Shown piece by piece: positions 33,239 to 46,158 of a stretch of DNA of 64,000 nt (positions are counted from its first letter, which is position 1; each line of letters begins with the position of its first letter). This stretch comes from Luteimonas sp. JM171 (lineage in GTDB: Bacteria > Pseudomonadota > Gammaproteobacteria > Xanthomonadales > Xanthomonadaceae): the NCBI RefSeq assembly GCF_001717465.1, contig NZ_CP017074.1, positions 553,162-617,161 on the forward strand. Direction: 5' to 3'. The notes beneath the pieces were generated by a model, which worked only from the letters and a program-made list of their open reading frames with translations, searched no databases and was not told where the DNA came from. The translations under genes were made by a program, and so were the position numbers.

Positions 33239-36200
33239 TGGAGCCGGGCCGGTTCAACCTGTCGCGGCCGTTCATCGAACGGCCGGTGGCGACCATCCTG
33301 CTGGCGGTGGCGGTGGTGCTCTCGGGCATCCTCGCCTACCGCATGCTGCCGGTGGCACCGCTGCCGCAGGTGGACTACCCGGCCATCCAGGTCTCGGCCA
33401 GCATGCCCGGGGCCAGTCCGGAATCGATGGCCGCCAACGTCGCCACGCCGCTGGAGCGGGCGCTGGGCACCATTCCGGGCGTGGACCGGATCACCTCCTC
33501 CAACAGCCAGGGCTCGACCCGGATCCACCTGCAGTTCGCGCTCGACCGCAACGTCGACGAGGCCGCGCGCGAGGTGCAGGCGGCGATCAACGCGGCCCGC
33601 TCACAGCTGCCCTCGGGCATGCCGGGGATGCCGCAGTACCGCAAGATCAACCCGTCGCAGGCGCCGATCATGTCGCTGGCGCTCAGCTCCGAGACCCTGT
33701 CGCCGGGCGAGCTTTACGACGTGGGCTCGACGATCCTGGCGCAGAAGATCGCCCAGATCCCGGGCGTGGGCCAGGTGGAGGCCGGCGGCGCCTCGCTGCC
33801 GGCGGTGCGGGTCTCGCTCAATCCCAACGCGCTCAACCAGTACGGCATCGCCCTGGACGAAGTGGCCGGGGCCATCCGCAACGCCAACGCCCTGCGCCCG
33901 CTCGGCCACGTGGCGACCGACGAGCGCCAGTGGCAGGTGGAGGCCAACCTGCAGCTGCGCACCGCCGACGAATACCGTGACCTGATCGTGGCCTGGCGCA
34001 ACGACACCCCGGTGTACCTGCGCGACGTGGCCCAGGTGGCCGAGGGCACCGAGAACCGCTACGCCGCCGGTTTCCACAACGACCGTGACGCGGTGCTGCT
34101 GGTGATCAGCCGCCAGCCCAACGCCAACATCATCGAGACCGTCGACGCGATCCACGCGCAGATGGACCAGCTGCGCGCGCTGCTGCCGGCGGGCGTGGAC
34201 ATGGAAGTGGTGATGGACCGGTCGCCGGTGATCCGCGCCACCCTCGGCGAGGCCGAGAATACGCTGATGATCGCGGTCGGCCTGGTGGTGCTGGTGGTGC
34301 TGGCGTTCCTGGGCAGCTGGCGCGCGGCGCTGGTGCCCACCCTCGCCATCCCGGTCTCGCTGCTGGGCGCGCTGGCGATCATCTGGCTGCTGGGCTTCTC
34401 CCTCAACACCATGTCGCTGATGGCGCTGATCGTGGCGGCGGTGCTGGTGGTGGACGATGCGATCGTGGTGCTGGAGAACATCGCCCGCCACATCGACGCC
34501 GGCCTGTCGCCGTGGAAGGCGGCGATGCGCGGCGCCGGCGAGGTCGGTGCCACCCTACTGTCGATGAACATCGCGCTGGCGGTGGTGTTCGTGTCGATCC
34601 TGTTCCTTGACGACTTCGTCGAACGCCTGTTCCGCGAGTTCTCGCTGACCCTGGTGGCGGCGATGGGCATCTCGCTGCTGGTCTCGCTGAGCCTCACCCC
34701 CACGCTCTCCGCGCGCCTGCTCGGGCGCAAGGATCCGGGCCGGGTGGTCGGTCCCTGGCAGCGGCTGGGCACGATGGCGTTCGAGGGCGCGCGCGGCGGG
34801 TACCTGCGCTCGCTGGGCGGGGTGGTCCGCCACGTGCCGCTGGCGCTGCTGGCACTGGCCGCCGCCATCGCGCTGAGCGTGTGGCTCTCGGGCCAGGTTC
34901 CGCGCGGCACCGTGCCGCAGCAGGACACCGGCCAGCTGCGCGGCTTCGCCCGCGGCGACGACGGCCTCTCCTTCCAGGTCATGCAGCCCAAGATCGACGC
35001 CTACCGCGAGCTGCTGATGTCCGACCCGGCGATCGAACACATCTCCGGCTACATCGGCGGCGCCAGCGGGGTCAACAACGCCTTCATCATGATCCAGATG
35101 AAGCCGCTGGAGGAGCGCGGCGTCTCCAGCCGCGAGGTGATCGACCGCCTGCGCATGCAGATGCCGTCCATCCCGGGCGGCCGCATGGGCCTGTGGGTGG
35201 ACCAGGACATCCGCATCGGCGGTGGCGGCGGCGGCGACGAGGAGACCTACCGGCTGGACCTGCTCTCCGGCGACATCGCGCCGCTGCGGCAGTGGACGCC
35301 GCGCATCCGCGACGCCCTGCAGGCGCTGCCGGAACTCGTGGACGTGGATTCGCGCGGCGACGAGGGCAGTCGCCAGGTGGTGCTGGACATCGACCGCACC
35401 GCCGCCGCCCAGCTGGGCGTGGACATGCGTATGGTCGCCACCGTGCTCAACAACTCCTTCAGCCAGCGCCAGGTGGCCACCCTCTATGACAGCCTCAACC
35501 AGTACCGGGTGGTGATGGAGCTGGACCCCCGCTACACCCAGAGCCCGGACACGCTCGACCAGGTGTACGCCATCGCGTCGGACGGCCGGCGCGTGCCGCT
35601 TTCGGCCTTCGCCAGCTGGTCGTACGGCATGGCGCCCGACCGCATCCAGCACCGCGAGCAGTTCATCGCCACCCGCATCAACTTCGCCCTCGCCCCGGGC
35701 GTGTCGCTGGGCGATGCGGTCGAAGCGATTGACCGCGCGATGGCCGGCATCATGCTGCCCAACGAGGTGCAGGCCAAGCTGAGCGAGGACGCCGGCAGCC
35801 TGCAGGACATGGGCCAGCGCCAGCTGTGGCTGATCCTGGGCGCGGTGCTGGCGGTGTACCTGGTGCTGGGCGTGCTGTACGAAAGCTTCCTGCTGCCGCT
35901 GGCGATCCTCTCGATCCTGCCGTCGGCCGGCGTGGGCGCGCTGCTGGCGCTGATGCTTTTCGACACCGACCTGGACCTGATCTCGCTGCTGGGCCTGTTC
36001 CTGCTGGTGGGCGTGGTGATGAAGAACACCATCCTGATGGTGGACTTTGCGCTGGCCGCCCAGCGAGAGCGCGGGCTCACCCCCGAGGCGGCCATCCTGG
36101 AGTCGGCGCGCCTGCGCTTCCGGCCCATCGTGATGACCAGCCTGGCCGCGCTGCTGGGCATGCTGCCGCTGATGCTGGCCACCGGCGAGGGCTGGGAGAT

Positions 36201-36354
36201 GCGCCGGCCGCTGGGCATCGCCATCGTCGGCGGCCTGCTGGTGAGCCAGGTGCTGACCCTCTACACCACCCCGGCGATCTACCTCGCGCTGGCGCGGCTG
36301 CGGGCGCGGTTCGTGCGTGAGGCGCCTGCGCCCGCCGCTTCGGCCGGCGCCTGA
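33238..36354 (+). CDS. mdtC: RND multidrug efflux permease subunit (MdtC-type)
   Basis: The 1038-residue partner of MdtB begins GRFNLSRPFIERPVATILLA and shows MdtC-specific segments such as ATPLERALGTIPGVDRITSS and QVDYPAIQVSASMPGASPE. Proton-relay residues are in VLVVDDAIVVLENIARHIDA. A glycine-rich insertion (GGGGGGDEE, near residue 660) sits in the second periplasmic loop. Its start ATG shares one base with the mdtB stop (TGATG), so translation is coupled. The operon ends here; 81 bp separate it from the sigma-factor gene, with no hairpin terminator visible. The MdtB/MdtC assignment rests on sequence resemblance and gene order. Confidence 0.94.
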   Translation: MEPGRFNLSRPFIERPVATILLAVAVVLSGILAYRMLPVAPLPQVDYPAIQVSASMPGASPESMAANVATPLERALGTIPGVDRITSSNSQGSTRIHLQFALDRNVDEAAREVQAAINAARSQLPSGMPGMPQYRKINPSQAPIMSLALSSETLSPGELYDVGSTILAQKIAQIPGVGQVEAGGASLPAVRVSLNPNALNQYGIALDEVAGAIRNANALRPLGHVATDERQWQVEANLQLRTADEYRDLIVAWRNDTPVYLRDVAQVAEGTENRYAAGFHNDRDAVLLVISRQPNANIIETVDAIHAQMDQLRALLPAGVDMEVVMDRSPVIRATLGEAENTLMIAVGLVVLVVLAFLGSWRAALVPTLAIPVSLLGALAIIWLLGFSLNTMSLMALIVAAVLVVDDAIVVLENIARHIDAGLSPWKAAMRGAGEVGATLLSMNIALAVVFVSILFLDDFVERLFREFSLTLVAAMGISLLVSLSLTPTLSARLLGRKDPGRVVGPWQRLGTMAFEGARGGYLRSLGGVVRHVPLALLALAAAIALSVWLSGQVPRGTVPQQDTGQLRGFARGDDGLSFQVMQPKIDAYRELLMSDPAIEHISGYIGGASGVNNAFIMIQMKPLEERGVSSREVIDRLRMQMPSIPGGRMGLWVDQDIRIGGGGGGDEETYRLDLLSGDIAPLRQWTPRIRDALQALPELVDVDSRGDEGSRQVVLDIDRTAAAQLGVDMRMVATVLNNSFSQRQVATLYDSLNQYRVVMELDPRYTQSPDTLDQVYAIASDGRRVPLSAFASWSYGMAPDRIQHREQFIATRINFALAPGVSLGDAVEAIDRAMAGIMLPNEVQAKLSEDAGSLQDMGQRQLWLILGAVLAVYLVLGVLYESFLLPLAILSILPSAGVGALLALMLFDTDLDLISLLGLFLLVGVVMKNTILMVDFALAAQRERGLTPEAAILESARLRFRPIVMTSLAALLGMLPLMLATGEGWEMRRPLGIAIVGGLLVSQVLTLYTTPAIYLALARLRARFVREAPAPAASAGA

Positions 36355-36435
36355 TCCCGCCCGCGGCGCCGGGCCGCGATTGCGCGCCCCGGCCCGCCCT
36401 GCTAGCGTCCGCGCGAGAAGGGAGGGGACGCCAAG

Positions 36436-37002
36436 GTGGGCGGAGAAGACATCACGCAGCTGCTGGCCAGGGCCCGGGAGGGCGGGCCGGAACGGCTGTC
36501 GGCGGTATTCGAGGCGCTGTATCCGGAGCTGGTGCGGCTGGCCAACTCGCGCCTGCGCGGCGGCGAGGGCACCCTCTCGCCCACGGTGCTGGTGCATGAG
36601 CTGTTCCTGCGCATCACCCAGGGCAACGCCCTGCCGCTGAACGACCGCAACCACTTCTTCGCCGCCTCGGCCAAGGCCATGCGCTGGATCCTGGTGGAGC
36701 ATGCCCGCGCCCGGGCCACCGCCAAGCGCGGCGGCGGCCAGGTGATGGTGGAGTTGGACGACCAGGTGGCGGGCGCGGATCCGGCCCTGACCAACGTGCT
36801 GGCGCTGGACAAGGCCCTGGAGGCGCTGGAAGCGATCAGCCCGCAGCGGCGCCAGGTGGTGGAGCTGCGCTGGTTCGGCGGCCTGGAGTTCTCCGAGATC
36901 GCATCCTTGCTGGATGTCTCCGAACGCACCGTCTACCGCGACTGGGAGCGCGCCCGCGCGTTCATGCAGGCCATGCTCGACGGGGACGGCGATGGATCCT
37001 GA
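36436..37002 (+). CDS. ECF-type RNA polymerase sigma factor (TIGR02999/ECF43-like)
   Basis: This 188-residue protein has the two ECF sigma domains: sigma-2 near residues 20-90 and sigma-4 near 125-180, with a typical helix-turn-helix (FSEIASLLDVSERTVYRDWERAR). It belongs to the group with SPTVLVHELFLRI where most ECF factors have an acidic DAED-like helix for core binding. In sigma factors of this type studied in Vibrio (EcfP) and Xanthomonas (EcfK), a threonine in that helix is phosphorylated by a neighbouring kinase to switch the factor on; Thr50 is the equivalent candidate here. No anti-sigma gene is present. The start is GTG, with GGAGGGG upstream, and the end overlaps the kinase gene by 11 bp. 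Confidence 0.92.
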   Translation: MGGEDITQLLARAREGGPERLSAVFEALYPELVRLANSRLRGGEGTLSPTVLVHELFLRITQGNALPLNDRNHFFAASAKAMRWILVEHARARATAKRGGGQVMVELDDQVAGADPALTNVLALDKALEALEAISPQRRQVVELRWFGGLEFSEIASLLDVSERTVYRDWERARAFMQAMLDGDGDGS

Positions 37003-39610
37003 CCAGCTCGCGCACTGGCAGGCCGCCGATGCGCTGTTCGACCAATGGCTGGATCTTCCCGCCGCGCAGCGCGCCGCCTGGCTCGCGGGACAGGACGCAG
37101 AGCCACCCGTGCTCCGGCGTCTGCAGCAGCTGATCGCCGCCCACCAGCGCCCGCGCGCCGGCATGGATCCTGCGGGAAGCGATCTTTCCGGCTGCCAGCT
37201 GGGCACCTGGACGCTGGAGTCGGAGCTGGGCCGCGGCGGCATGGCAGTGGTGTACCGGGCGTCGCGCGAGCAGGGCATGGCCCGCCAGCACGCCGCGGTG
37301 AAGATCCTGACCCTGGGCGCGCTCGGCGCCACCGGCCGCGAGCGCTTCCACCGCGAGGCCGCGATCCTGGCCCGCCTCAACCATCCCAACGTCACCGCGC
37401 TGGTGGATTCGGGCGTGGCGGAGGACGGCACCTGCTGGCTGGCGATGCCGCTGGTGGATGGCCGGCGCATCGACGACTGGTGCGATGCGAAATCGCTTGA
37501 TGCCCGCGAGATCGTGCGCCTGTACCTGCAGGTCTGCGACGCAGTGGCCTATGCGCATCGCAACCTGGTGATTCATCGCGACCTCAAGCCGTCGAACGTG
37601 CTTGTGGACCAGGACGGCCACGTGCGCCTGCTTGATTTCGGCATCGGCCAGTTCGCCGACGACGAGGACGAGCGCACCCACACCATGTGGCGCGCGCTGA
37701 CCCCCGGCTACGCCGCGCCCGAGCAGCTGCGAGGCGCCCCGCCGACCACCGCGATGGACATCTACGGGCTGGGCGCCCTGCTGCACCGCCTGCTCACCGG
37801 CCGCACGCCGGGCGCCGATGGCACCACCCACAGCACCCGCCCCTCGCTGCTGGTGCGCGACGCCGGCGACGCCTATCACCGCCACTATGTCCCGCTGAAG
37901 ACGGATTTGGACCGCGTCCTCCTCAAGGCCCTGGCCGAGGAACCGGATCAGCGCTACGCCACCGCGGAGGCGCTTGCCGGCGACCTGCGCCGCTGGCTGG
38001 ATGGGCGGCCGGTGTTGGCTGAAAAGCCGAAGCTGGGTTACCGGGCACGGAAATTCCTCGCGCGTAACAAAGTTGGGGTTGCGGCCGCCGGGCTTCTGGT
38101 TCTTGCACTGGCCGGAGGAGTCTCAGCGACGCTGTGGCAAGCGCGCGAAGCACGCCGGGAAGCGGAGAACGCGCGAGCGCAGGCCCAGCGGGCGATCCTG
38201 GTGAGGGAGTTCCTGCAGCGTGTCTTCTACTCGACGCAACCGGCCGTCGGCGGTGTTCCGGACGCCCTCGAACTGCTGGAAGAAGGCGCACGGCGGGCCC
38301 GGTCCGAGGTCCTGCAGTCCGATCCCCTGGCCGCAGCCGACATCCTGATGTTGACGGGCAGCGCCAGGGCCGGCCTGGGAGAATATGCGCTGGCGCAGGC
38401 GGACCTTGAGCAGGCCTCCTCCATTCTCCGCGACTCCCAGCCGCGGGCCTATCCGGAACGCGTGCAGATTGAAGGCTACCTGAGCCAACTGGCGCGCTAT
38501 CACGGTGAAAACACGAAAGCGCAGCAGCATGGCCGCGCAGCCGTTGGGCTCGGGGAGCTTGCCCTCGCGGAAGATGGCGACGCTCAGCCGCTGCTGGATG
38601 CACAGGTCAGCTGGGGGATGAGTCTTTTCGTCGATGATCCGGCAGCCGCCCTGGAAGTGTTCGAGGAAGTGTATGCCGCGCTTCCCGATCACGGTTTGAC
38701 GGACACGCAGCTCCATATCAGCGTCCTCGACGGGCTTTCCGCCGCGCTGATGGCGGTATCACCGGAGGACACCGGAAGGCTCGCCGAATTGGCGGAAGAA
38801 CAGATGCGCCTCTCCCGCGAGATCGACGGACCCGGGTCCAGCCAGTACGTGAGCACGCTCTCCGACCAGGTGCCTGTCTTCAGTCGCATCGGCGACCTTG
38901 AGCGGGCGGCGGAAGTCGCCTGGGAAGCCGTGCGCATCGCGGAGCAGGCGTTCACCGGCCCCCACCGGAACAAGGCGGGGGCCCATTGCCAACTGGCTGC
39001 CAACCTGCACTGGCAAGGAGACTACGCGCAGGCGGTGGAGCATTACAGCATCGCCAACGGCATGTATTCGGAGCTCGGGCTGAGCGACCTCCACGTGCAG
39101 GCTTGCTTCATGTACGCCGGCTACGCACGTGCCGCCCTGGGTGACTATCACTCCGCCCTGGAAGACCTTGAACACGCCTGGGCGGTCCTGGGTGACCACG
39201 ATTATCGCGCTACGCCGACCGGATACTCCAACTGCGGTACCAAAGCCGCGGTATACATCCGGCTTGGCGATGCCGATTCGGCCGAACGGCTCCTCGATGG
39301 CTGCCAGCCTGCCGAGGGCCACGATTCCCCGCTGATGTATTCCCAGGCAAGGGCAGAACTCCACTTCTCGCGCGGCGAACTCGACCATGCCGCGAACATC
39401 GCGGCCGGCTTGCGTCGGGACCGTCCTCCAGAAGCGGATGACCGATACTGGATGCGGCCCTGGATGCTGTCCATCCTGCTCGCTGGGGAAACCGGTGACA
39501 CTGGGCTGGTGGCGGATCTGGAACAGGAACTTGGCGGGTTCGCCGCTTCGCCGCCCCTGTCCATGTGCCTGCAGCACCCGTCCAGGGAACACTGCCTGGC
39601 GCTGCCATAA
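36992..39610 (+). CDS. Membrane-anchored Ser/Thr protein kinase with C-terminal TPR region
   Basis: The 872-residue protein has a cytoplasmic kinase domain (about residues 65-345): glycine loop GRGGMAVVY, Lys104 in AAVKIL, catalytic HRDLKPSN with Asp197, DFG Asp215 and APE. A single membrane helix follows at about residues 361-382 (VGVAAAGLLVLALAGGVSA). The remaining 490 residues are helical repeats of TPR type that would lie in the periplasm and could sense a signal. Its gene overlaps the sigma-factor gene, so the likely substrate is that sigma factor. The domain order matches PknS/PknT-type kinases paired with ECF43 factors. Third-position GC seems lower after the membrane helix than in the kinase domain, hinting at a mosaic gene. 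Confidence 0.92.
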   Translation: MDPDQLAHWQAADALFDQWLDLPAAQRAAWLAGQDAEPPVLRRLQQLIAAHQRPRAGMDPAGSDLSGCQLGTWTLESELGRGGMAVVYRASREQGMARQHAAVKILTLGALGATGRERFHREAAILARLNHPNVTALVDSGVAEDGTCWLAMPLVDGRRIDDWCDAKSLDAREIVRLYLQVCDAVAYAHRNLVIHRDLKPSNVLVDQDGHVRLLDFGIGQFADDEDERTHTMWRALTPGYAAPEQLRGAPPTTAMDIYGLGALLHRLLTGRTPGADGTTHSTRPSLLVRDAGDAYHRHYVPLKTDLDRVLLKALAEEPDQRYATAEALAGDLRRWLDGRPVLAEKPKLGYRARKFLARNKVGVAAAGLLVLALAGGVSATLWQAREARREAENARAQAQRAILVREFLQRVFYSTQPAVGGVPDALELLEEGARRARSEVLQSDPLAAADILMLTGSARAGLGEYALAQADLEQASSILRDSQPRAYPERVQIEGYLSQLARYHGENTKAQQHGRAAVGLGELALAEDGDAQPLLDAQVSWGMSLFVDDPAAALEVFEEVYAALPDHGLTDTQLHISVLDGLSAALMAVSPEDTGRLAELAEEQMRLSREIDGPGSSQYVSTLSDQVPVFSRIGDLERAAEVAWEAVRIAEQAFTGPHRNKAGAHCQLAANLHWQGDYAQAVEHYSIANGMYSELGLSDLHVQACFMYAGYARAALGDYHSALEDLEHAWAVLGDHDYRATPTGYSNCGTKAAVYIRLGDADSAERLLDGCQPAEGHDSPLMYSQARAELHFSRGELDHAANIAAGLRRDRPPEADDRYWMRPWMLSILLAGETGDTGLVADLEQELGGFAASPPLSMCLQHPSREHCLALP

Positions 39611-39658
39611 CACTTGCGGCGTCCTGCCGGTGCTGGCGCCTGGCAGTTTCCACCAGGT

Positions 39659-39692
39659 GATCTCGTTGATTGGGGGGTGCCGGGGCGAAACC
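39659..39692 (+). promoter_or_regulatory. Shared upstream motif, copy A (before the secreted protein gene)
   Basis: GATCTCG - 4 nt - TTGGGGGGT - 8 nt - GAAACC lies 45 nt before the ATG at 39738. The same blocks occur with 3 nt and 8 nt spacing before the adhesin gene at 42303. The pairing suggests a promoter or operator shared by the two genes, perhaps read by the adjacent ECF sigma factor. A 7-bp-stem hairpin (CGGGGCG...CGCCCCG, 39681-39704) overlaps its right end. Confidence 0.5.
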
Positions 39693-39737
39693 CGGCTCGC
39701 CCCGGGTCACGCCGACCCGACTGCACGGGACCCTGCA

Positions 39738-40907
39738 ATGCGCATCCGAACCTCTCTCTCCGCACTTGCCGTGACCCTGGCCACGGCGCTGTCCACGCCC
39801 GCCCACGCCCGCGAACCCGAAGCCGAGCTCTACATCGACGTCGCCACCCATGCCATGCCCGGCATGGGCGGGATGGGCGCGCTGGGACGATTTGCCGGTG
39901 CCATGACCGGCGGCAACGCGCAGTACGGCATGGCCCGGCATCCCGGCATGCACGGAAACTACATGGACGTCGCCCTGCACAGCCGCAGCCAGCCCGGCGC
40001 ACCGGCCACCCAGGCCGTACCGAAGGGCCTGCGCCTGGGCAACGAAATCGACCTCCTCACTCCCGCCGCCTGGGAACCCTCTCCCGATGCAGGCACCGAC
40101 GGCCAGGCCACCCCGCTTGCCGTCACCGACGGCGGGCCCTACACGATCCGCTATTACTGGGGCTGCGGCGAACAGGTCCGGTCCGGCCAGCCGGCCACGT
40201 TCACCACCAGCATCCGCGACGGCAGGCCGGTGTACAGCGGCAGCGCCATGACCCCGCGCAGCGTCCCGCAGGACGGCATCAGCGCCGGTCCGGAATATTC
40301 GCTCTGGCCCAACCCCTCCAGCCGGCGGTCCGTATCCCGCAAGGCTTCACTTGCGGGCACGCACCGCGTCGCCGGCAACGGGGTGCCGGAGTCGATGCAG
40401 TTCGACCTGGGTGCCGAGCATGACTTCCTGCCCGCACTGGAACTGGGCAGCGAGGACCACGACCACGGCACCTTGCTGAGCTGGAACGGCTTGGACGGCG
40501 CGCGCGCCTACTTCATCCATGCCACCGCGATGGACGGGGACACGGTGGTGATGTGGAGCAGCGCCACCGATGGCTACGCCGGCCCGGAGCTGCTCGATTT
40601 CCTGCCCGAGGACCTGGTCACGCAGTGGACCTCCCAGGGCACGCTGCTCGACAGCGGCCAGCGCAGTTGCCAGATCCCCGCTGAAGTCTTCGGCGATGCC
40701 GCGCCCATGGTGCAGATGATCGCCTACGGCAACGTCCGCACGCTGGAGGCGCCTGGAACCAGCCCGGCATGGCGCGTGCGCGTGCGCACCAAGTCCACGG
40801 CCATGCTGATGCCTTCCGGGTTCGCCGCTCCCTCGGCGCGGGAGGCCGGCGAGGATGCAGCCCGCTCCACCGGCAAAAACCTCCTGCGCGGACTGTTCCA
40901 CCGCTGA
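39738..40907 (+). CDS. Secreted protein of unknown function
   Basis: The 389-residue protein has a signal peptide (MRIRTSLSALAVTLATALS, ending AHA before REP). The mature N-terminus is rich in Gly and Met (HAMPGMGGMGALG and HPGMHGNYM), which might bind metal or interact with membranes. A conserved-looking core has YTIRYYWGCGEQVRSGQP, later LLSWNGLDGARAYFIHA, and a C-terminal basic tail. Similar YWGCGE-type exported proteins exist in other proteobacteria, but I know no function. It lies 127 bp after the kinase and carries upstream motif copy A. The start was set by the signal peptide; the open frame continues far upstream without meaning. Confidence 0.75.
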   Translation: MRIRTSLSALAVTLATALSTPAHAREPEAELYIDVATHAMPGMGGMGALGRFAGAMTGGNAQYGMARHPGMHGNYMDVALHSRSQPGAPATQAVPKGLRLGNEIDLLTPAAWEPSPDAGTDGQATPLAVTDGGPYTIRYYWGCGEQVRSGQPATFTTSIRDGRPVYSGSAMTPRSVPQDGISAGPEYSLWPNPSSRRSVSRKASLAGTHRVAGNGVPESMQFDLGAEHDFLPALELGSEDHDHGTLLSWNGLDGARAYFIHATAMDGDTVVMWSSATDGYAGPELLDFLPEDLVTQWTSQGTLLDSGQRSCQIPAEVFGDAAPMVQMIAYGNVRTLEAPGTSPAWRVRVRTKSTAMLMPSGFAAPSAREAGEDAARSTGKNLLRGLFHR

Positions 40908-40976
40908 TCACAACCGGGCTTCCGTCCGGACCCGGGTGGGGTCCGGGCGCCCCCGCCCACGCAACCCTGGATCAAC

Positions 40977-41720
40977 ATGACCACGATGAAGTTGTACCTG
41001 CCCCTCCTCGCTGCCCTGGCGCTGCCTGCCCTCACCGCCTGTGGAACGGACGCGCCGGCGGCGCGGCAGGAAACCGGCTACGCCACCGGCCTGGTCATGG
41101 ACACCAACGGCAAGCCGGTTGCCGGCGCCCGCATCCTGCTCGACAACACCGTCTTCTATGCCTCCTACATCAACGGCTCCACCGGCGCGGACGGCACCTA
41201 CCGGCTCAAGGTCCAGCCGGGCGCATGGCGCGCCTACGCCACGATCCAGAAGGAATACAACGGCCGGACCTACTCGCTCGACCTGCACCCCGACAGCGCT
41301 GATTCCTTTGACGACAGCGGCGCCGTGCGCAACTTCACCTGGAAGCTGGAAGGACGCAAGCCGGACAACAACTGGGGCTATTACGGCGGCCTGGTGAAGG
41401 TGTTCAACGAATCCGGTTTTTACGAGATGGAAAACGTGGAGATCACCCTGGAGCCGGCCGGCCCGCTGATCGACGGATCCGAAGGCAGGATGCTGGTCCT
41501 GCGGTTGGGCGACAACTACTGGCGCGACCTTGCTTACCTGGAAGACATCCCGATCGGCCGCTACACGGCCAGCGCGGTGCTCGTGGACGGCGGCGCCCCG
41601 CGGGCGCTGCGGGTCCGGGACTACCCCGATGGCGACCTTGCCGGCCGGATGCAGCTGGACTTCATTCCCGACGCATCCGGCACCCCGGACAGCACGGCGT
41701 CCATTTCCATCGGGTATTGA
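40977..41720 (+). CDS. Lipoprotein with a carboxypeptidase-regulatory-like domain
   Basis: The 247-residue protein carries a lipoprotein signal ending LPALTAC, so it should be lipid-anchored. Residues about 33-90 (ATGLVMDTNGKPVAGARILL...GADGTYRLKVQPG) resemble the transthyretin-like carboxypeptidase regulatory domain, a beta-sandwich common in surface and adhesion proteins. The remaining part, with ENVEITLEPAGPLIDG and GRYTASAVLVDG, may be a second beta-sandwich. No catalytic motif is present. It follows the secreted protein by 69 bp and precedes another lipoprotein by 9 bp, all on one strand. An ATG at 40986 is an alternative start. Confidence 0.75.
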   Translation: MTTMKLYLPLLAALALPALTACGTDAPAARQETGYATGLVMDTNGKPVAGARILLDNTVFYASYINGSTGADGTYRLKVQPGAWRAYATIQKEYNGRTYSLDLHPDSADSFDDSGAVRNFTWKLEGRKPDNNWGYYGGLVKVFNESGFYEMENVEITLEPAGPLIDGSEGRMLVLRLGDNYWRDLAYLEDIPIGRYTASAVLVDGGAPRALRVRDYPDGDLAGRMQLDFIPDASGTPDSTASISIGY

Positions 41721-41729
41721 GGAAGTCCC

Positions 41730-42179
41730 ATGCGTACCGGGCCCGGCCCGTCCATCGAAATCCCTCGCGCCTGCCTGGGCGCGGCGTTCGCCGCCCTCAT
41801 GGCATCGGCGTGCTCCCCGCCCCCGCACGCGGCGGTGGTGGCGTGCACCGGCACGAACGTCATGGACTATCACGTGGAAAAGGATTGCACGGTGACCGTG
41901 GAGCGGTTCAAGCAGTCAACCACGGCAACCATCCAGACCGACACCCGCAAGCGCAAGGCGGTGGTGACCGGGCAGTTCACCGTACGGGAGGGAACGGTGC
42001 GGGTCGAGTTGCGCAGCAGCGCGGGATCCGCGGCTGAAGCCGTTATCAGCCCCGGCAACCCTGGCACGGTCGAGGGCACCCTGCCCCTGCGCCGCCACAA
42101 CAACGATATCCACATCCGTTTCCACCCCGAAGGCGAAGCGGTCGGGGTGGAGGGCAGCGTGCATTTCGAAGCGCGCTGA
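41730..42179 (+). CDS. Small putative lipoprotein of unknown function
   Basis: The frame encodes 149 residues. A hydrophobic stretch with a lipobox-like FAALMASAC near residue 28 suggests a lipoprotein, although the n-region is long and lacks clear basic residues beyond Arg2 and Arg13. The mature part has a possible disulfide pair (VACTGTNVMDYHVEKDC) and a strand-rich, positively charged body. I do not recognise a family. It starts 9 bp after the preceding lipoprotein stop (GAGGAAG ribosome site), so both are co-expressed. The adhesin gene follows after 123 bp with its own upstream motif. Confidence 0.65.
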   Translation: MRTGPGPSIEIPRACLGAAFAALMASACSPPPHAAVVACTGTNVMDYHVEKDCTVTVERFKQSTTATIQTDTRKRKAVVTGQFTVREGTVRVELRSSAGSAAEAVISPGNPGTVEGTLPLRRHNNDIHIRFHPEGEAVGVEGSVHFEAR

Positions 42180-42215
42180 CGCGGAGGCCAGGCGGGCTGT
42201 CAGTCGCCGCCGTCC

Positions 42216-42248
42216 GATCTCGTGTTTGGGGGGTCCAGCGTTGAAACC
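42216..42248 (+). promoter_or_regulatory. Shared upstream motif, copy B (before the adhesin gene)
   Basis: GATCTCG - 3 nt - TTGGGGGGT - 8 nt - GAAACC lies 54 nt before the adhesin ATG. It matches copy A at 39659 block for block, while the bases between blocks differ, as expected of a conserved protein-binding site rather than a recent duplication. Confidence 0.5.
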
Positions 42249-42302
42249 TGCGACGACAGGAAGCGGCGCGTCTGGACCAGTCCAACCTCACGGAGAACCA
42301 CC

Positions 42303-44426
42303 ATGAGCAACATCATTCCCAACGGCCTGAAGCTGGTGCCCCTGGCGCTTGCGCTCGGCCTCGCGATCGCCGGTCCGGCCAAGGCGGACCCCAACGGCCC
42401 CAACTGCTGGGTCCTCGACCCCGCCACCGGGGAGTGGGTACAGGACAGCAGCCTGGACAAGACCCTGGGCGATGAGCACGGCAGCGCCAACAGCAGCTGC
42501 CATGCCAACGCAGTCGCCTATGGCAGCGGCAACAATGCCAGCAGCAACTGGTCCAGCGCGGTTGGCAGCGGGAACATCGCGCGCGGCGACCACAGCTCGG
42601 CGATGGGCCGGGGCAACACTGCCAGCTCGGTGCGCACCAGCGCGTTCGGATACGACAACAGCGCAACGGCGACTGACGCGAGCGCGTTCGGACGAAGCAA
42701 TACCGCGGGCGCCCAGAACGCCAGCGCATTCGGCTTCACGAATACCGCAAGCGGCACCGACAGCACGGCGGTCGGTCGCTCCAATACCGCGGCGGGCATC
42801 GCGACCGTCGCCGTCGGCGAGCGCAACGTCGCAACGGCAGACGGCTCCGTCACGGTGGGCCGCTCCAATGCCGCGAGCGGCAGCTCATCCAACGCGGTCG
42901 GCAACGGCAACCGCACGGAGGCAACCACGGCCAATGCCTTCGGTGGCGGCAATGTCGCCGGTGGCGGATCCAGCAATGCCTTTGGAGGCGGCAACACCGC
43001 GGCAGGCGCACAGTCCAGCAGCTTTGGATTCGGCAACGAAGCGAGCGGACAATACGCCAACGCCTTCGGGCGGCTCAACGCTGCCGAAGGATCGGCAAGC
43101 ACGGCGTTTGGCTACTCAAACGAAGTCGAGGGCGCCAGCAGCAATGCGTTCGGCGACAACAACACCGTCGCAGGCGACTATGCGAACGCGTTCGGCAAGA
43201 ACAACATCGCCAGCGGCAACAGCAGCGTTGCGTTCGGCCTCGCCAATACGAGCGGCGGGACGCAAAGCGTGGCGATCGGCAACGACAACCTCGCCAGCGG
43301 GTCTCAGGCGAATGCGATCGGCACCAGCAACACTGCGGAGGGCGAGTACAGCTCGGCATTCGGGCGTGGAAACTCCGCGACCGGTGCCCGCGCCAATGCG
43401 TTCGGGTACGGCAACACGGCTGCTGGCGCGCGCAGCACCGCCCTGGGGTACGCGGCCGCCGCGGGCGGCGAAAACAGCATCGCAATGGGAATGGAGGCCA
43501 GTGCGGCCGGGCTGGACGACATCGCCATCGGTACCGGCTCCGCGGTCCTGGCCGATACCAGCGTGGCGCTGGGCGCGGGCGCCAGCGTCAGCGCCGAGGC
43601 CGCCAACGCGGTGGCCCTGGGCGCCGGTTCGGTGGCCGATGCCGCCAACACGGTGTCCGTCGGCAGCGCGGACAGCCTGCGCCGGATCACCAACGTAGGT
43701 GACGCCACCGGCGATACCGACGCGGTGAACCTGCGCCAGCTGCAGGCCGCGCTGGACGGAGTGGTTGGCGGCGGCGGCGTGACCGAAGCGCGGGTGCGCG
43801 AAATCGCCGATGCCGGCGATGCCGCGACCCTCACCGCCGCCAACGACTACACCGACGCCCAGATCGCCGAACTCGATCTGGTCAGCGAAGCCCGCGTACA
43901 GGAAATCGCTGACGCCGGTGACGCTGCCACCCTGTCTTCGGCCAACGGCTATACCGACACCCGGGAAGCCGCCATCCGTGCCGACATGGCTGACGGCGAC
44001 GAGGCCACCCTGGCCGAGGCCAACCAGTACACGGATGCGCGCAGTTCAACCACGCTGTCCTCGGCCAACGCCTACACCGACCAGGCCATCCAGGCACTGG
44101 TGGGCTTTGACGCTGGCGGCCTCAACGACCGGCTCAACATGCTCGAAGACCGCTTCGAAGACTTCGACCACCGCCTGCATCGCCAGGACCGCCGGATCGA
44201 CCGCATGGGCGCCATGAGCTCAGCCATGCTCAACATGGCCATCAACGCCGCCGGCACCCAGAGCCCGCGCGGCCGCATCGCGGTGGGCGCCGGCTTCCAG
44301 GGCGGCGAGCAGGGCCTGTCGATCGGCTATGGCAAGCGCATCGGCCGCACCGCGTCCTTCTCCATCGGCGGCGCCTTCAGCAGCGGCGAGCGTTCGGCCG
44401 GCATCGGCTTCGGCGTGGATCTGTAA
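42303..44426 (+). CDS. YadA-like trimeric autotransporter adhesin
   Basis: This 707-residue protein is a type Vc surface adhesin. A signal peptide ends AKA before DPN. The passenger head (about residues 60-450) consists of left-handed beta-roll repeats of 14 residues, such as SNAFGGGNTAAGAQ and SSAFGRGNSATGAR. A neck (GDTDAVNLRQL) follows, then a coiled-coil stalk with repeated EIADAGDAATL...ANDYTD units, and a C-terminal membrane anchor of about 65 residues starting MLNMAINAAG and ending with the aromatic-poor GIGFGVDL. Three copies form the barrel through which the passenger exits. GGAG precedes the ATG. A strong terminator follows. Upstream motif copy B links it to the sigma/kinase locus. 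Confidence 0.93.
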   Translation: MSNIIPNGLKLVPLALALGLAIAGPAKADPNGPNCWVLDPATGEWVQDSSLDKTLGDEHGSANSSCHANAVAYGSGNNASSNWSSAVGSGNIARGDHSSAMGRGNTASSVRTSAFGYDNSATATDASAFGRSNTAGAQNASAFGFTNTASGTDSTAVGRSNTAAGIATVAVGERNVATADGSVTVGRSNAASGSSSNAVGNGNRTEATTANAFGGGNVAGGGSSNAFGGGNTAAGAQSSSFGFGNEASGQYANAFGRLNAAEGSASTAFGYSNEVEGASSNAFGDNNTVAGDYANAFGKNNIASGNSSVAFGLANTSGGTQSVAIGNDNLASGSQANAIGTSNTAEGEYSSAFGRGNSATGARANAFGYGNTAAGARSTALGYAAAAGGENSIAMGMEASAAGLDDIAIGTGSAVLADTSVALGAGASVSAEAANAVALGAGSVADAANTVSVGSADSLRRITNVGDATGDTDAVNLRQLQAALDGVVGGGGVTEARVREIADAGDAATLTAANDYTDAQIAELDLVSEARVQEIADAGDAATLSSANGYTDTREAAIRADMADGDEATLAEANQYTDARSSTTLSSANAYTDQAIQALVGFDAGGLNDRLNMLEDRFEDFDHRLHRQDRRIDRMGAMSSAMLNMAINAAGTQSPRGRIAVGAGFQGGEQGLSIGYGKRIGRTASFSIGGAFSSGERSAGIGFGVDL

Positions 44427-44450
44427 TCCCCCTGTTCCAGTCCCGCCAGG

Positions 44451-44484
44451 AGGCCCCCGCAGCAATGCGGGGGCCTTTTTTGTT
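44451..44484 (+). terminator. Rho-independent terminator after the adhesin gene
   Basis: A perfect 9-bp stem (GGCCCCCGC with its complement) around AGCAAT is followed by six T. It lies 25 bp after the adhesin stop and ends the 36.4-44.4 kb block. Confidence 0.92.
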
Positions 44485-44496
44485 GCGCCTTCGCGA

Positions 44497-46158
44497 CTAT
44501 TCCGCCTCGTACACCACCTGCCCGTCCACCACGGTCAGCAGTGCGCGGGTGTTCCGGATGACGTCGGGTTCGACTTCAAAGATGTCCTGTGACCAGACCA
44601 CGAAATCGGCCAGCATGCCCGGTGCAAGCGTGCCCTTCTCGTACTCCTGGAACTCCGCATAGGCCGAGCCAACGGTGTAGGCCCGCACCGCCTCTTCCAC
44701 CGTGAGCTTCTGCCCGGGGAACCAGCCGTCCGGGTGTTTTCCGTCCAGCGTCGCCCGGGTGACCGCGGCGTGCACCGTCAACATCGGATCGAGCGGCGCC
44801 ACGTACCAGTCGGTGCCCAGCGCCAGCCGCACGCCGGCTTCGAGCATGTCGCGGAATGGATAGGTGCCCGCCAGCCGCGCCGCATCCAGCCGCAGGTGCG
44901 CCCAGCGGCCATCATCGATGGCGTGGTACGGCTGCACCGAGGCGATGACATCCTGCTCCGCGAAGCGCCGGATCAGCCCGTCGTTGAGGTGCTGCGCATG
45001 CTCCACCCGGAACCGTCGGTCACGCTCCCCGTGCCTGGCCGCGACCTGGCCGAACACCTCCAGCACCTCGTGGTTCGCCCGGTCACCGATCGCGTGGATC
45101 ATCACCTGCAGTCCCGCCGCGTCGGCGCCGGTGACATCATCCGGATGCCGCTGCGCCTGCTCCAGCGCAAGCCCGGTGGAATCCGGCTGGTCCAGGTACG
45201 GCTCGAAGAACCACGCCGTGGTCGAGCCCAGGCTCCCGTCGGTGAACCCCTTGAGCCCGCCCACCCGCAGCATCGGTCCGCCGAAAGCGGCACGCACCCC
45301 CGCCCGTACCCAGCGCTGGTAATCCGCCAGCGGCGACACCGCATAGATCCGCGTTTTCAGTTCGCCGCGCCGCGCGAGCTCCTGATACACCCCCGGCCGG
45401 TTCGGCCCCATGTCCTGTACGCTCGTCACCCCGAGCGACGCCGCATGCTCCGTCGCCGCCCGCGCCACCGCCAGCGCCTGCTCGAAGCTGCGCTCCGGGA
45501 TCACCGCCGACACCGCCCCCATCGCATCGTCCTTGAGCACGCCAGTTGGCTCCCCGTCCGCATCGCGCACGATCTCCCCGCCTGGCGGATCCGGCGTCTC
45601 CCGCGTGATCCCCGCCAGCTCCAGCGCCACGCTGTTGGCCAGCGCCATGTGCCCGTCCAGCCGCTGCACGAACACCGGGTTCTCCGGCGTCAGCGCGTCG
45701 ATCAGCTGCCGCGTCGGCAGCGCGTTGGGACTCCAGTTCTCATGGTCCCAGTTCCCGTTGAGCACCCACTCCCCCGGCGCCAGCCCCGCCACGAACTCCC
45801 CGATCCGCCGCGCGAACTCCTCCTGCGACGGCGCATCGCGCAGGTCCACCGAAGACAGCCCCTGGCCCCCATCCATGAAATGCACGTGGCTGTCGTTGAA
45901 CCCCGGCAGCACCAGCCGACCCCCCGCCTCGATCACCCGGGTCGAATCACACACCAGCCCCCGCACATCCGCCTCATCGCCCACCGCCACGACGCGCGAT
46001 CCCATCGTCGCAAGCGCACTTGCCCGCGGCACGTCCGCGGCCAGCGTGCGGATATTCGCGTCGACCACCACCACGTCCGCACAGACGGGCGCTGCCAGCG
46101 CCGCAACGGGGAATGTTCCCGCGGCGAGCACCGCGGCAAGAGGCAGGATTCGTTTCAT
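44497..46158 (-). CDS. Exported amidohydrolase (YtcJ-like, Amidohydro_3)
   Basis: The 553-residue protein has a signal peptide (MKRILPLAAVLAAGTFPVAA, ending ALA before APV) and is expected in the periplasm. The metal-binding and catalytic motifs of the YtcJ-like group are present: LPGFNDSHVHFMDGG near the N-terminus, GNWDHENW, MIHAIGDRANHEVL, RVEHAQHL and the aspartate of LALGTDWYVAPLDP. Relatives hydrolyse N-acyl or formyl amides; the substrate here is not known. GGAG lies 7 nt before ATG 46158. It is separated from groEL by a terminator and one REP-like element, and faces the adhesin terminator, so it appears to be a single-gene unit. Confidence 0.9.
   Translation of the reverse strand: MKRILPLAAVLAAGTFPVAALAAPVCADVVVVDANIRTLAADVPRASALATMGSRVVAVGDEADVRGLVCDSTRVIEAGGRLVLPGFNDSHVHFMDGGQGLSSVDLRDAPSQEEFARRIGEFVAGLAPGEWVLNGNWDHENWSPNALPTRQLIDALTPENPVFVQRLDGHMALANSVALELAGITRETPDPPGGEIVRDADGEPTGVLKDDAMGAVSAVIPERSFEQALAVARAATEHAASLGVTSVQDMGPNRPGVYQELARRGELKTRIYAVSPLADYQRWVRAGVRAAFGGPMLRVGGLKGFTDGSLGSTTAWFFEPYLDQPDSTGLALEQAQRHPDDVTGADAAGLQVMIHAIGDRANHEVLEVFGQVAARHGERDRRFRVEHAQHLNDGLIRRFAEQDVIASVQPYHAIDDGRWAHLRLDAARLAGTYPFRDMLEAGVRLALGTDWYVAPLDPMLTVHAAVTRATLDGKHPDGWFPGQKLTVEEAVRAYTVGSAYAEFQEYEKGTLAPGMLADFVVWSQDIFEVEPDVIRNTRALLTVVDGQVVYEAE

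Follow-up and report, generated by a model that had tools for sequence, protein, structure and literature searches.

A predicted ECF-type promoter precedes a secreted-protein gene and a YadA-type adhesin gene beside an ECF43-like sigma factor in Luteimonas sp. JM171

Two sites in Luteimonas sp. JM171 (GCF_001717465.1) share the layout of an extracytoplasmic function (ECF) sigma factor promoter. Both lie in a window of 64,000 nt, the whole stretch of DNA analysed here (contig NZ_CP017074.1, positions 553,162 to 617,161), downstream of the genes for an ECF43-like sigma factor (36436-37002) and a Hanks-type kinase. The two sites are very probably promoters read by RNA polymerase carrying this adjacent sigma factor, which by analogy would be activated by the kinase and would drive a secreted-protein operon and an adhesin gene. 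The direct observations are the conservation of the promoter, its concentration in loci that bear the ECF gene, and the co-variation of its -35 element with the sigma-4 helix.

Promoter layout in the window

The first-pass annotation of this DNA described a tripartite repeat, GATCTCG-N3/4-TTGGGGGGT-N8-GAAACC, as a conserved site. Both copies are confirmed as exact matches (39659-39692 and 42216-42248), and a pattern search of the window finds no third. The start codons lie at 39738 and 42303 as described, and the genes stand in the order given, with the ECF sigma factor and kinase upstream. None of 100 dinucleotide shuffles of the window contains two matches (mean 0.00). In the genome-wide search that had been proposed (2,992,253 bases, one contig), there is no scatter of further exact copies of the TTGGGGGGT-N8-GAAACC half. 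The only exact matches are the two window sites, with two more at 2 mismatches and one match for the reversed pattern.

The conserved unit is predicted to be an ECF-type promoter, TGKCAGT-N15-(T/G)CGTGGATG, also written TGKCAGT-N15-KCGTG(GATG). In both copies TG(G/T)CAGT lies 18 nt ahead of GATCTCG and belongs to the best-conserved part of the site. The window -35 elements are TGGCAGT (39641) and TGTCAGT (42198), followed exactly 15 nt on by TCGTTGATT or TCGTGTTTG, and GATCTCG runs from the end of the spacer into the -10. The -35/-10 assignment, at first called unclear, is resolved because the site is shifted upstream by that distance; the transcription start downstream remains a prediction. 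The TTGGGGGGT G-run would be the start-site region and GAAACC leader sequence. The -35 and -10 are both conserved, their spacing is fixed and they are oriented toward the gene, as in an ECF-type promoter. The elements and genes of the locus are as follows.

36436..37002, + strand: ECF sigma factor, ECF43-like; region 2.2 reads SPTV, Thr50 included, and lacks the acidic DAED motif; sigma-4 helix SERTVYRDWERAR
36992..39610, + strand: Hanks-type Ser/Thr protein kinase, its start overlapping the ECF gene (PF00069, E=2e-41)
39641..39647, + strand: -35 of promoter 1, TGGCAGT, conserved in relatives
39663..39671, + strand: -10 region of promoter 1, TCGTTGATT, its TCG within the GATCTCG block (39659-39665)
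39670..39678, + strand: TTGGGGGGT block, predicted start-site region with +1 near 39677 (position derived solely from the -35); not conserved
39679..39696, + strand: predicted 5' leader hairpin GCCGGG-GCGAAA-CCCGGC, with the GAAACC block in its loop and 3' arm
39738..40907, + strand: SEC1, predicted secreted protein, first gene after promoter 1, with orthologues in relatives
40977..41720, + strand: LIP, predicted lipoprotein with a CarboxypepD_reg-like stretch below the Pfam gathering score
41730..42179, + strand: SM, small predicted exported protein, closing the presumed SEC1-LIP-SM operon
42198..42204, + strand: -35 of promoter 2, TGTCAGT
42220..42228, + strand: -10 region of promoter 2, TCGTGTTTG, its TCG within the GATCTCG block (42216-42222)
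42226..42248, + strand: TTGGGGGGT (start-site region, predicted +1 near 42234) and GAAACC (leader)
42303..44426, + strand: ADH, YadA-type trimeric autotransporter adhesin, gene of promoter 2

Distribution among relatives

The comparison uses 32 loci (19.5 kb or less) around relatives of the ECF gene. The DNA upstream of SEC1, lipoprotein and adhesin genes was compared in 15 of these, and a regular expression was then run over all 32 loci and the window. In the nine close-orthologue loci (L043-L051; ECF identity 69-77%), TGTCAG(T), a fixed gap and (T/G)CGTGGATG or a sequence near it recur. The same search finds no site before the ECF gene itself in these nine loci, which would have pointed to autoregulation.

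The sites of this type, termed class A, number 29 from 15 loci, the window included. All 29, which were selected by near-match to the promoter pattern, contain TGKCAG-N16-KCGT; neither TG.CAG nor the -10 CGT varies, and the seventh base is T in 28. Of the 29, only the two window sites contain TTGGGGGGT, and the same two alone contain GAAACC. In the sister species the adhesin promoter is TGGCAGT-N15-TCGTGGTTGGAGAGTCCAGCGTTGAAGCC, with TTGGAGAGT and GAAGCC where the window has its blocks. The sister thus retains the promoter (TGGCAGT-N15-TCGTG) without the G-run and GAAACC. The comparison with related species thus bears out only one part of the first-described repeat: GATCTCG overlaps the conserved -10, and the other two blocks are not conserved.

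At 1 mismatch or fewer, TGTCAGT-N15-TCGTGGATG matches 21 sites, spread over 12 of the 247 genomes of the family, and the reversed pattern matches none. Close ECF orthologues, defined as ECF matches of at least 68% identity with up to 13 candidates scored per genome, are present in 10 of the 247. The promoter at this threshold is found in 8 of these 10 genomes and in 4 of the 237 others (Fisher p=7e-11 with genomes taken as independent, only a guide because the genomes are related). Those eight genomes account for 17 of the 21 sites. Each of the 17 has the same strand as the ECF gene, lies no more than ~8 kb downstream of it and precedes a SEC1, adhesin or lipoprotein-like gene. Of six loci outside the first set, three (L116, L119, L120) carry the promoter before genes of these kinds and three (L124, L125, L127) do not, and a further genome of the genus (L202) has three promoter sites. 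The genome of JM171 also encodes a second TIGR02999-like sigma factor (G000:C1:1275879). There is next to no likelihood that the sites serve this protein or the housekeeping sigma factor instead, as they track and adjoin close orthologues of the adjacent ECF sigma factor (17 of 17 in the 8 genomes).

It is also extremely improbable that GATCTCG, TTGGGGGGT and GAAACC together form a protein binding site of their own. The two copies are exact and their second half has no other exact copy in the genome, but neither the G-run nor GAAACC is found in any class A site outside the window, and the sister adhesin promoter has neither. As a conserved unit, the TTGGGGGGT-N8-GAAACC half is rejected: at 1 mismatch or fewer it occurs in 9 of the 247 genomes (own included; reversed pattern in 2), and in none of the nine other genomes with a close ECF orthologue.

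Alternatively, it could be partial gene conversion between the promoter regions, and not coincidence, that made the two window copies alike in the G-run and GAAACC. This alternative touches the extra blocks alone and leaves the promoter reading unaffected. Both blocks match within the genome and not in the sister, but the spacer and flanks differ between the copies, and gene conversion is unlikely. The copy-1 GAAACC is the loop and arm of a predicted hairpin with an equivalent in the sister SEC1 leader, and coincidence therefore suffices.

Some relatives carry extra promoter copies before further lipoprotein-like genes (L045 at 6789 and 7737; L202 at 7000 and 11489), so the size of the local regulon varies.

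The leaders show several features of their own. There is no Rfam match to an RNA element in 36000-45000, and the 40 nt that follow the sites fold no more stably than an upstream control (mean z -0.46 vs -0.52, 29 sites each). A 5-bp hairpin near the predicted start occurs in 17 of the 29 class A sites, compared with a mean of 6.4 and a maximum of 13 in 500 shuffles; because the sites are related by descent, this is a side observation and does not speak to function. The small hairpin at the predicted start of many class A promoters is of the CCGG-N5-CCGG type and may protect the 5' end. The adhesin leader (42233-42269; GTCCAGCGTTGAA.CCTGCGACGACAGGAAGCGGCGC) differs from that of the sister (L212) at 1 of 37 bases while the 15-nt spacer keeps 8 of 15 (by eye), and it may therefore be under its own constraint.

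Co-variation of the -35 with the sigma-4 helix

Three loci with a SEC1 gene (L124, L125, L127) have no class A promoter at up to 3 mismatches. Before the secreted-protein gene they carry TGGCGGT-N15-(T/C)CG(A/T)(A/T)A (found by eye). Their ECF sigma factors have the helix SERTAQR (AQ) in place of SERTVYR (VY), and the -35 is TGGCGG in 3 of 3. A fourth AQ locus (L203) contains no homologue of the promoter-bearing genes within the stretch.

In a second clade (ECF identity 60-64% for the named loci), the gap before adhesins follows TGKCAG-N15-(T/G)(G/A)CGGATG. The members with the AR helix STRTARR (L057, L205, L206) have the -35 TGGCCA in 3 of 3. Among the members lacking AR, L052 and L053 have TGTCAG with the helix VH, and L058 and L207 have TGGCAG with the helix VY. 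In a tree of 36 ECF sigma factors, helix columns included, AQ and AR form separate, well-supported clades.

The -35 changes match the changes in the sigma-4 helix, and for this reason direct recognition by the neighbouring ECF43-like sigma factor is favoured. It is probable, though less firmly so than the promoter assignment itself, that the ECF43-like sigma factor in Luteimonas-type bacteria rewired its -35 at least twice, from VY to AQ with TGKCAG to TGGCGG and from VY to AR with TGKCAG to TGGCCA, the examined promoters shifting alongside. A profile of seven of these ECF sigma factors matches domain 4 of sigma-E (2h27) weakly (E=0.27, 48 residues on both sides). On the equal-length ranges of this weak match, the variable second helix residue may be placed at sigma-E R171. 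The available text of PMC6713349 describes contacts of R171 with positions -31 and -32. The changing -35 bases would fall at -32 and -31 if the -35 is numbered with its G at -35, given this numbering and the assumed chain offset. The co-variation thus yields a specific residue-to-base prediction and, if true, natural matched sigma/promoter pairs in a kinase-activated sigma family.

The same observation bears on whether TGKCAGT-N15-KCGTG is instead the operator of a DNA-binding activator or repressor. The palindromic, CCGG-N5-CCGG type leader sequence in some loci would suit an operator. Two half-sites with a fixed 15-nt spacer, a uniform orientation to the gene and a distance to the start codon that fits -35/-10 elements do not, nor does co-variation with the recognition helix of the neighbouring ECF sigma factor, and an operator is very improbable. 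The earlier suggestion that the sites are target promoters of the ECF sigma factor is supported by co-occurrence, position in the locus and this co-variation.

A second split separates class A from class B by -10 and spacer (TGKCAGT-N15-KCGTGGATG vs TGKCAGT-N14-TGCGGATG). More distant relatives (L052, L053, L055, L056, L058, L060, L062, L207) have TGKCAG-N15-TGCGGATG or a sequence near it, with the same -35, another -10 and a shorter gap. Across the family, class B has 38 sites in 35 of the 247 genomes vs 13 for the reversed pattern (counted from the table), and 7 sites lie within ~4 kb of an ECF gene (read from coordinates). With these counts the class B pattern is weak when taken alone.

Several results weigh against the assignment of the promoters to the adjacent sigma factor and against the rewiring. 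The promoter sites of the JM171 genome are 2 and 3 mismatches from the consensus. Up to 3 mismatches, this genome has 20 matches vs 7 for the reversed pattern, and matches at 3 mismatches are mostly noise. The promoter-1 site, with 3 mismatches, is for this reason identified by orthology and not by score. JM171 itself and G133, both among the 10 close-orthologue genomes, lack a site at 1 mismatch or fewer; the site before the G133 adhesin gene (L051) exceeds this limit. In G047 (L208, G047:C61:20000-32408) a class A site precedes an adhesin, and another adhesin and an orthologue of the kinase (66% over 440 residues) follow. No ECF gene was found on this 12.4-kb stretch, and the search of the whole genome, 81% complete, gave none at E<=1e-30 either; G047 is an unexplained exception to the pairing of promoter and ECF gene. 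The sites at 1 mismatch or fewer in G195, G237 and G245 are taken for chance. Among the more distant loci, no site is found before the adhesin match of L070 or L073, or before the secreted-protein match of L074 (L074 by pattern search, not inspected by eye). Since AQ and AR are one clade each, there are only two independent -35 shifts. Visual inspection supplied the AQ and AR sites and some of class B, and a regular expression the other sites.

Locus genes, proposed regulation and known systems

The window sigma factor matches TIGR02999 (170.5 bits; cut-off 126.15) and PF07638 (164.8 bits), is 86% identical to that of Candidatus Luteimonas excrementigallinarum, and is filed as ECF43-like from its sequence. 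Region 2.2 reads (S/T)PT(V/M/I) in 25 of 25 aligned ECF sigma factors, the acidic DAED being replaced and the Thr kept. In the kinase, the kinase domain is followed by a segment judged hydrophobic by eye, and the C-terminal region matches TPR weakly. A kinase match adjoins the ECF gene in 9 of 9 loci (L043-L051). In Luteimonas mephitis (L120, 10560-15958) the kinase gene is present in two tandem copies, with a weak promoter-like site before the second. The SEC1 protein has no Pfam or NCBIfam match.

From these features we infer start sites, direct binding, operon structure, phosphorylation and an inducing signal. The external part of the kinase would sense an envelope or contact signal. The membrane kinase would then phosphorylate Thr50 in region 2.2, and the negative charge of phospho-Thr50 would let the sigma factor bind core polymerase, both steps by analogy with EcfK and EcfP; phosphorylation control is carried over from the ECF43 papers. 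Promoter 1 (-35 TGKCAGT, 15-nt spacer, -10 starting (T/G)CGT) would drive the secreted-protein/lipoprotein operon, and promoter 2, with the same layout, the YadA-type adhesin. Such a system would tie surface adhesins to a kinase-sigma switch, and a defined promoter makes the regulons of kinase-associated ECF sigma factors searchable.

A possible, unproven distal target lies outside the window at G000:C1:522791-522866 (L080, L213). There, TGTCCGT-N15-TCGTGTACG (TGTCCGT-N15-TCGTG) begins 75 nt before the start codon of a predicted secreted protein gene (522866), which we tentatively take to be CsgG-like. Among ten upstream regions, own included, 3 match a pattern (L213, L215 and L217, the last only the AQ-type) and 7 do not (L214, L216, L219-L222, L224).

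Kinase-associated ECF sigma factors are already a recognised group. In the available parts of PMC8999054 and PMC13147305, ECF43 members lack the acidic region-2.2 motif and keep a threonine. The parts available of PMC13147305, PMC8999054, PMC6653060 and PMC8103513 state no ECF43 promoter consensus; this literature cover is incomplete and earlier publication is possible. EcfP/PknT of Vibrio parahaemolyticus (ECF43) is likewise described, in the accessible text, as lacking the acidic motif, with activation by threonine phosphorylation reported for EcfP (PMC8999054, PMC8103513, PMC13147305). Unlike the window system, the EcfP regulon is there described as polymyxin resistance. EcfK/PknS of Xanthomonas citri (ECF43) is similar, as far as the consulted portions go, in that the ECF gene lies beside a transmembrane Hanks-type kinase gene, region 2.2 contains a Thr (T51) and targets are encoded nearby. 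These targets are a type VI secretion system (T6SS) in EcfK/PknS, whereas in the window the nearby genes encode a secreted protein, a lipoprotein and a YadA-type adhesin, and the motif is SPTV here vs QATE in EcfK.

The -10 of sigma-E is TCTGA and differs from the window -10, KCGTG. The sigma-E helix carries a V ahead of R171, and in our own alignment the helix residues are VY here vs V-R171 in sigma-E. The promoter resembles those described for sigma-E and SigW in the available text of PMC6713349 in having a -35 read by the sigma-4 recognition helix, but the -35 itself is TGKCAGT here vs GGAACTT (sigma-E) and GAAACCT (SigW).

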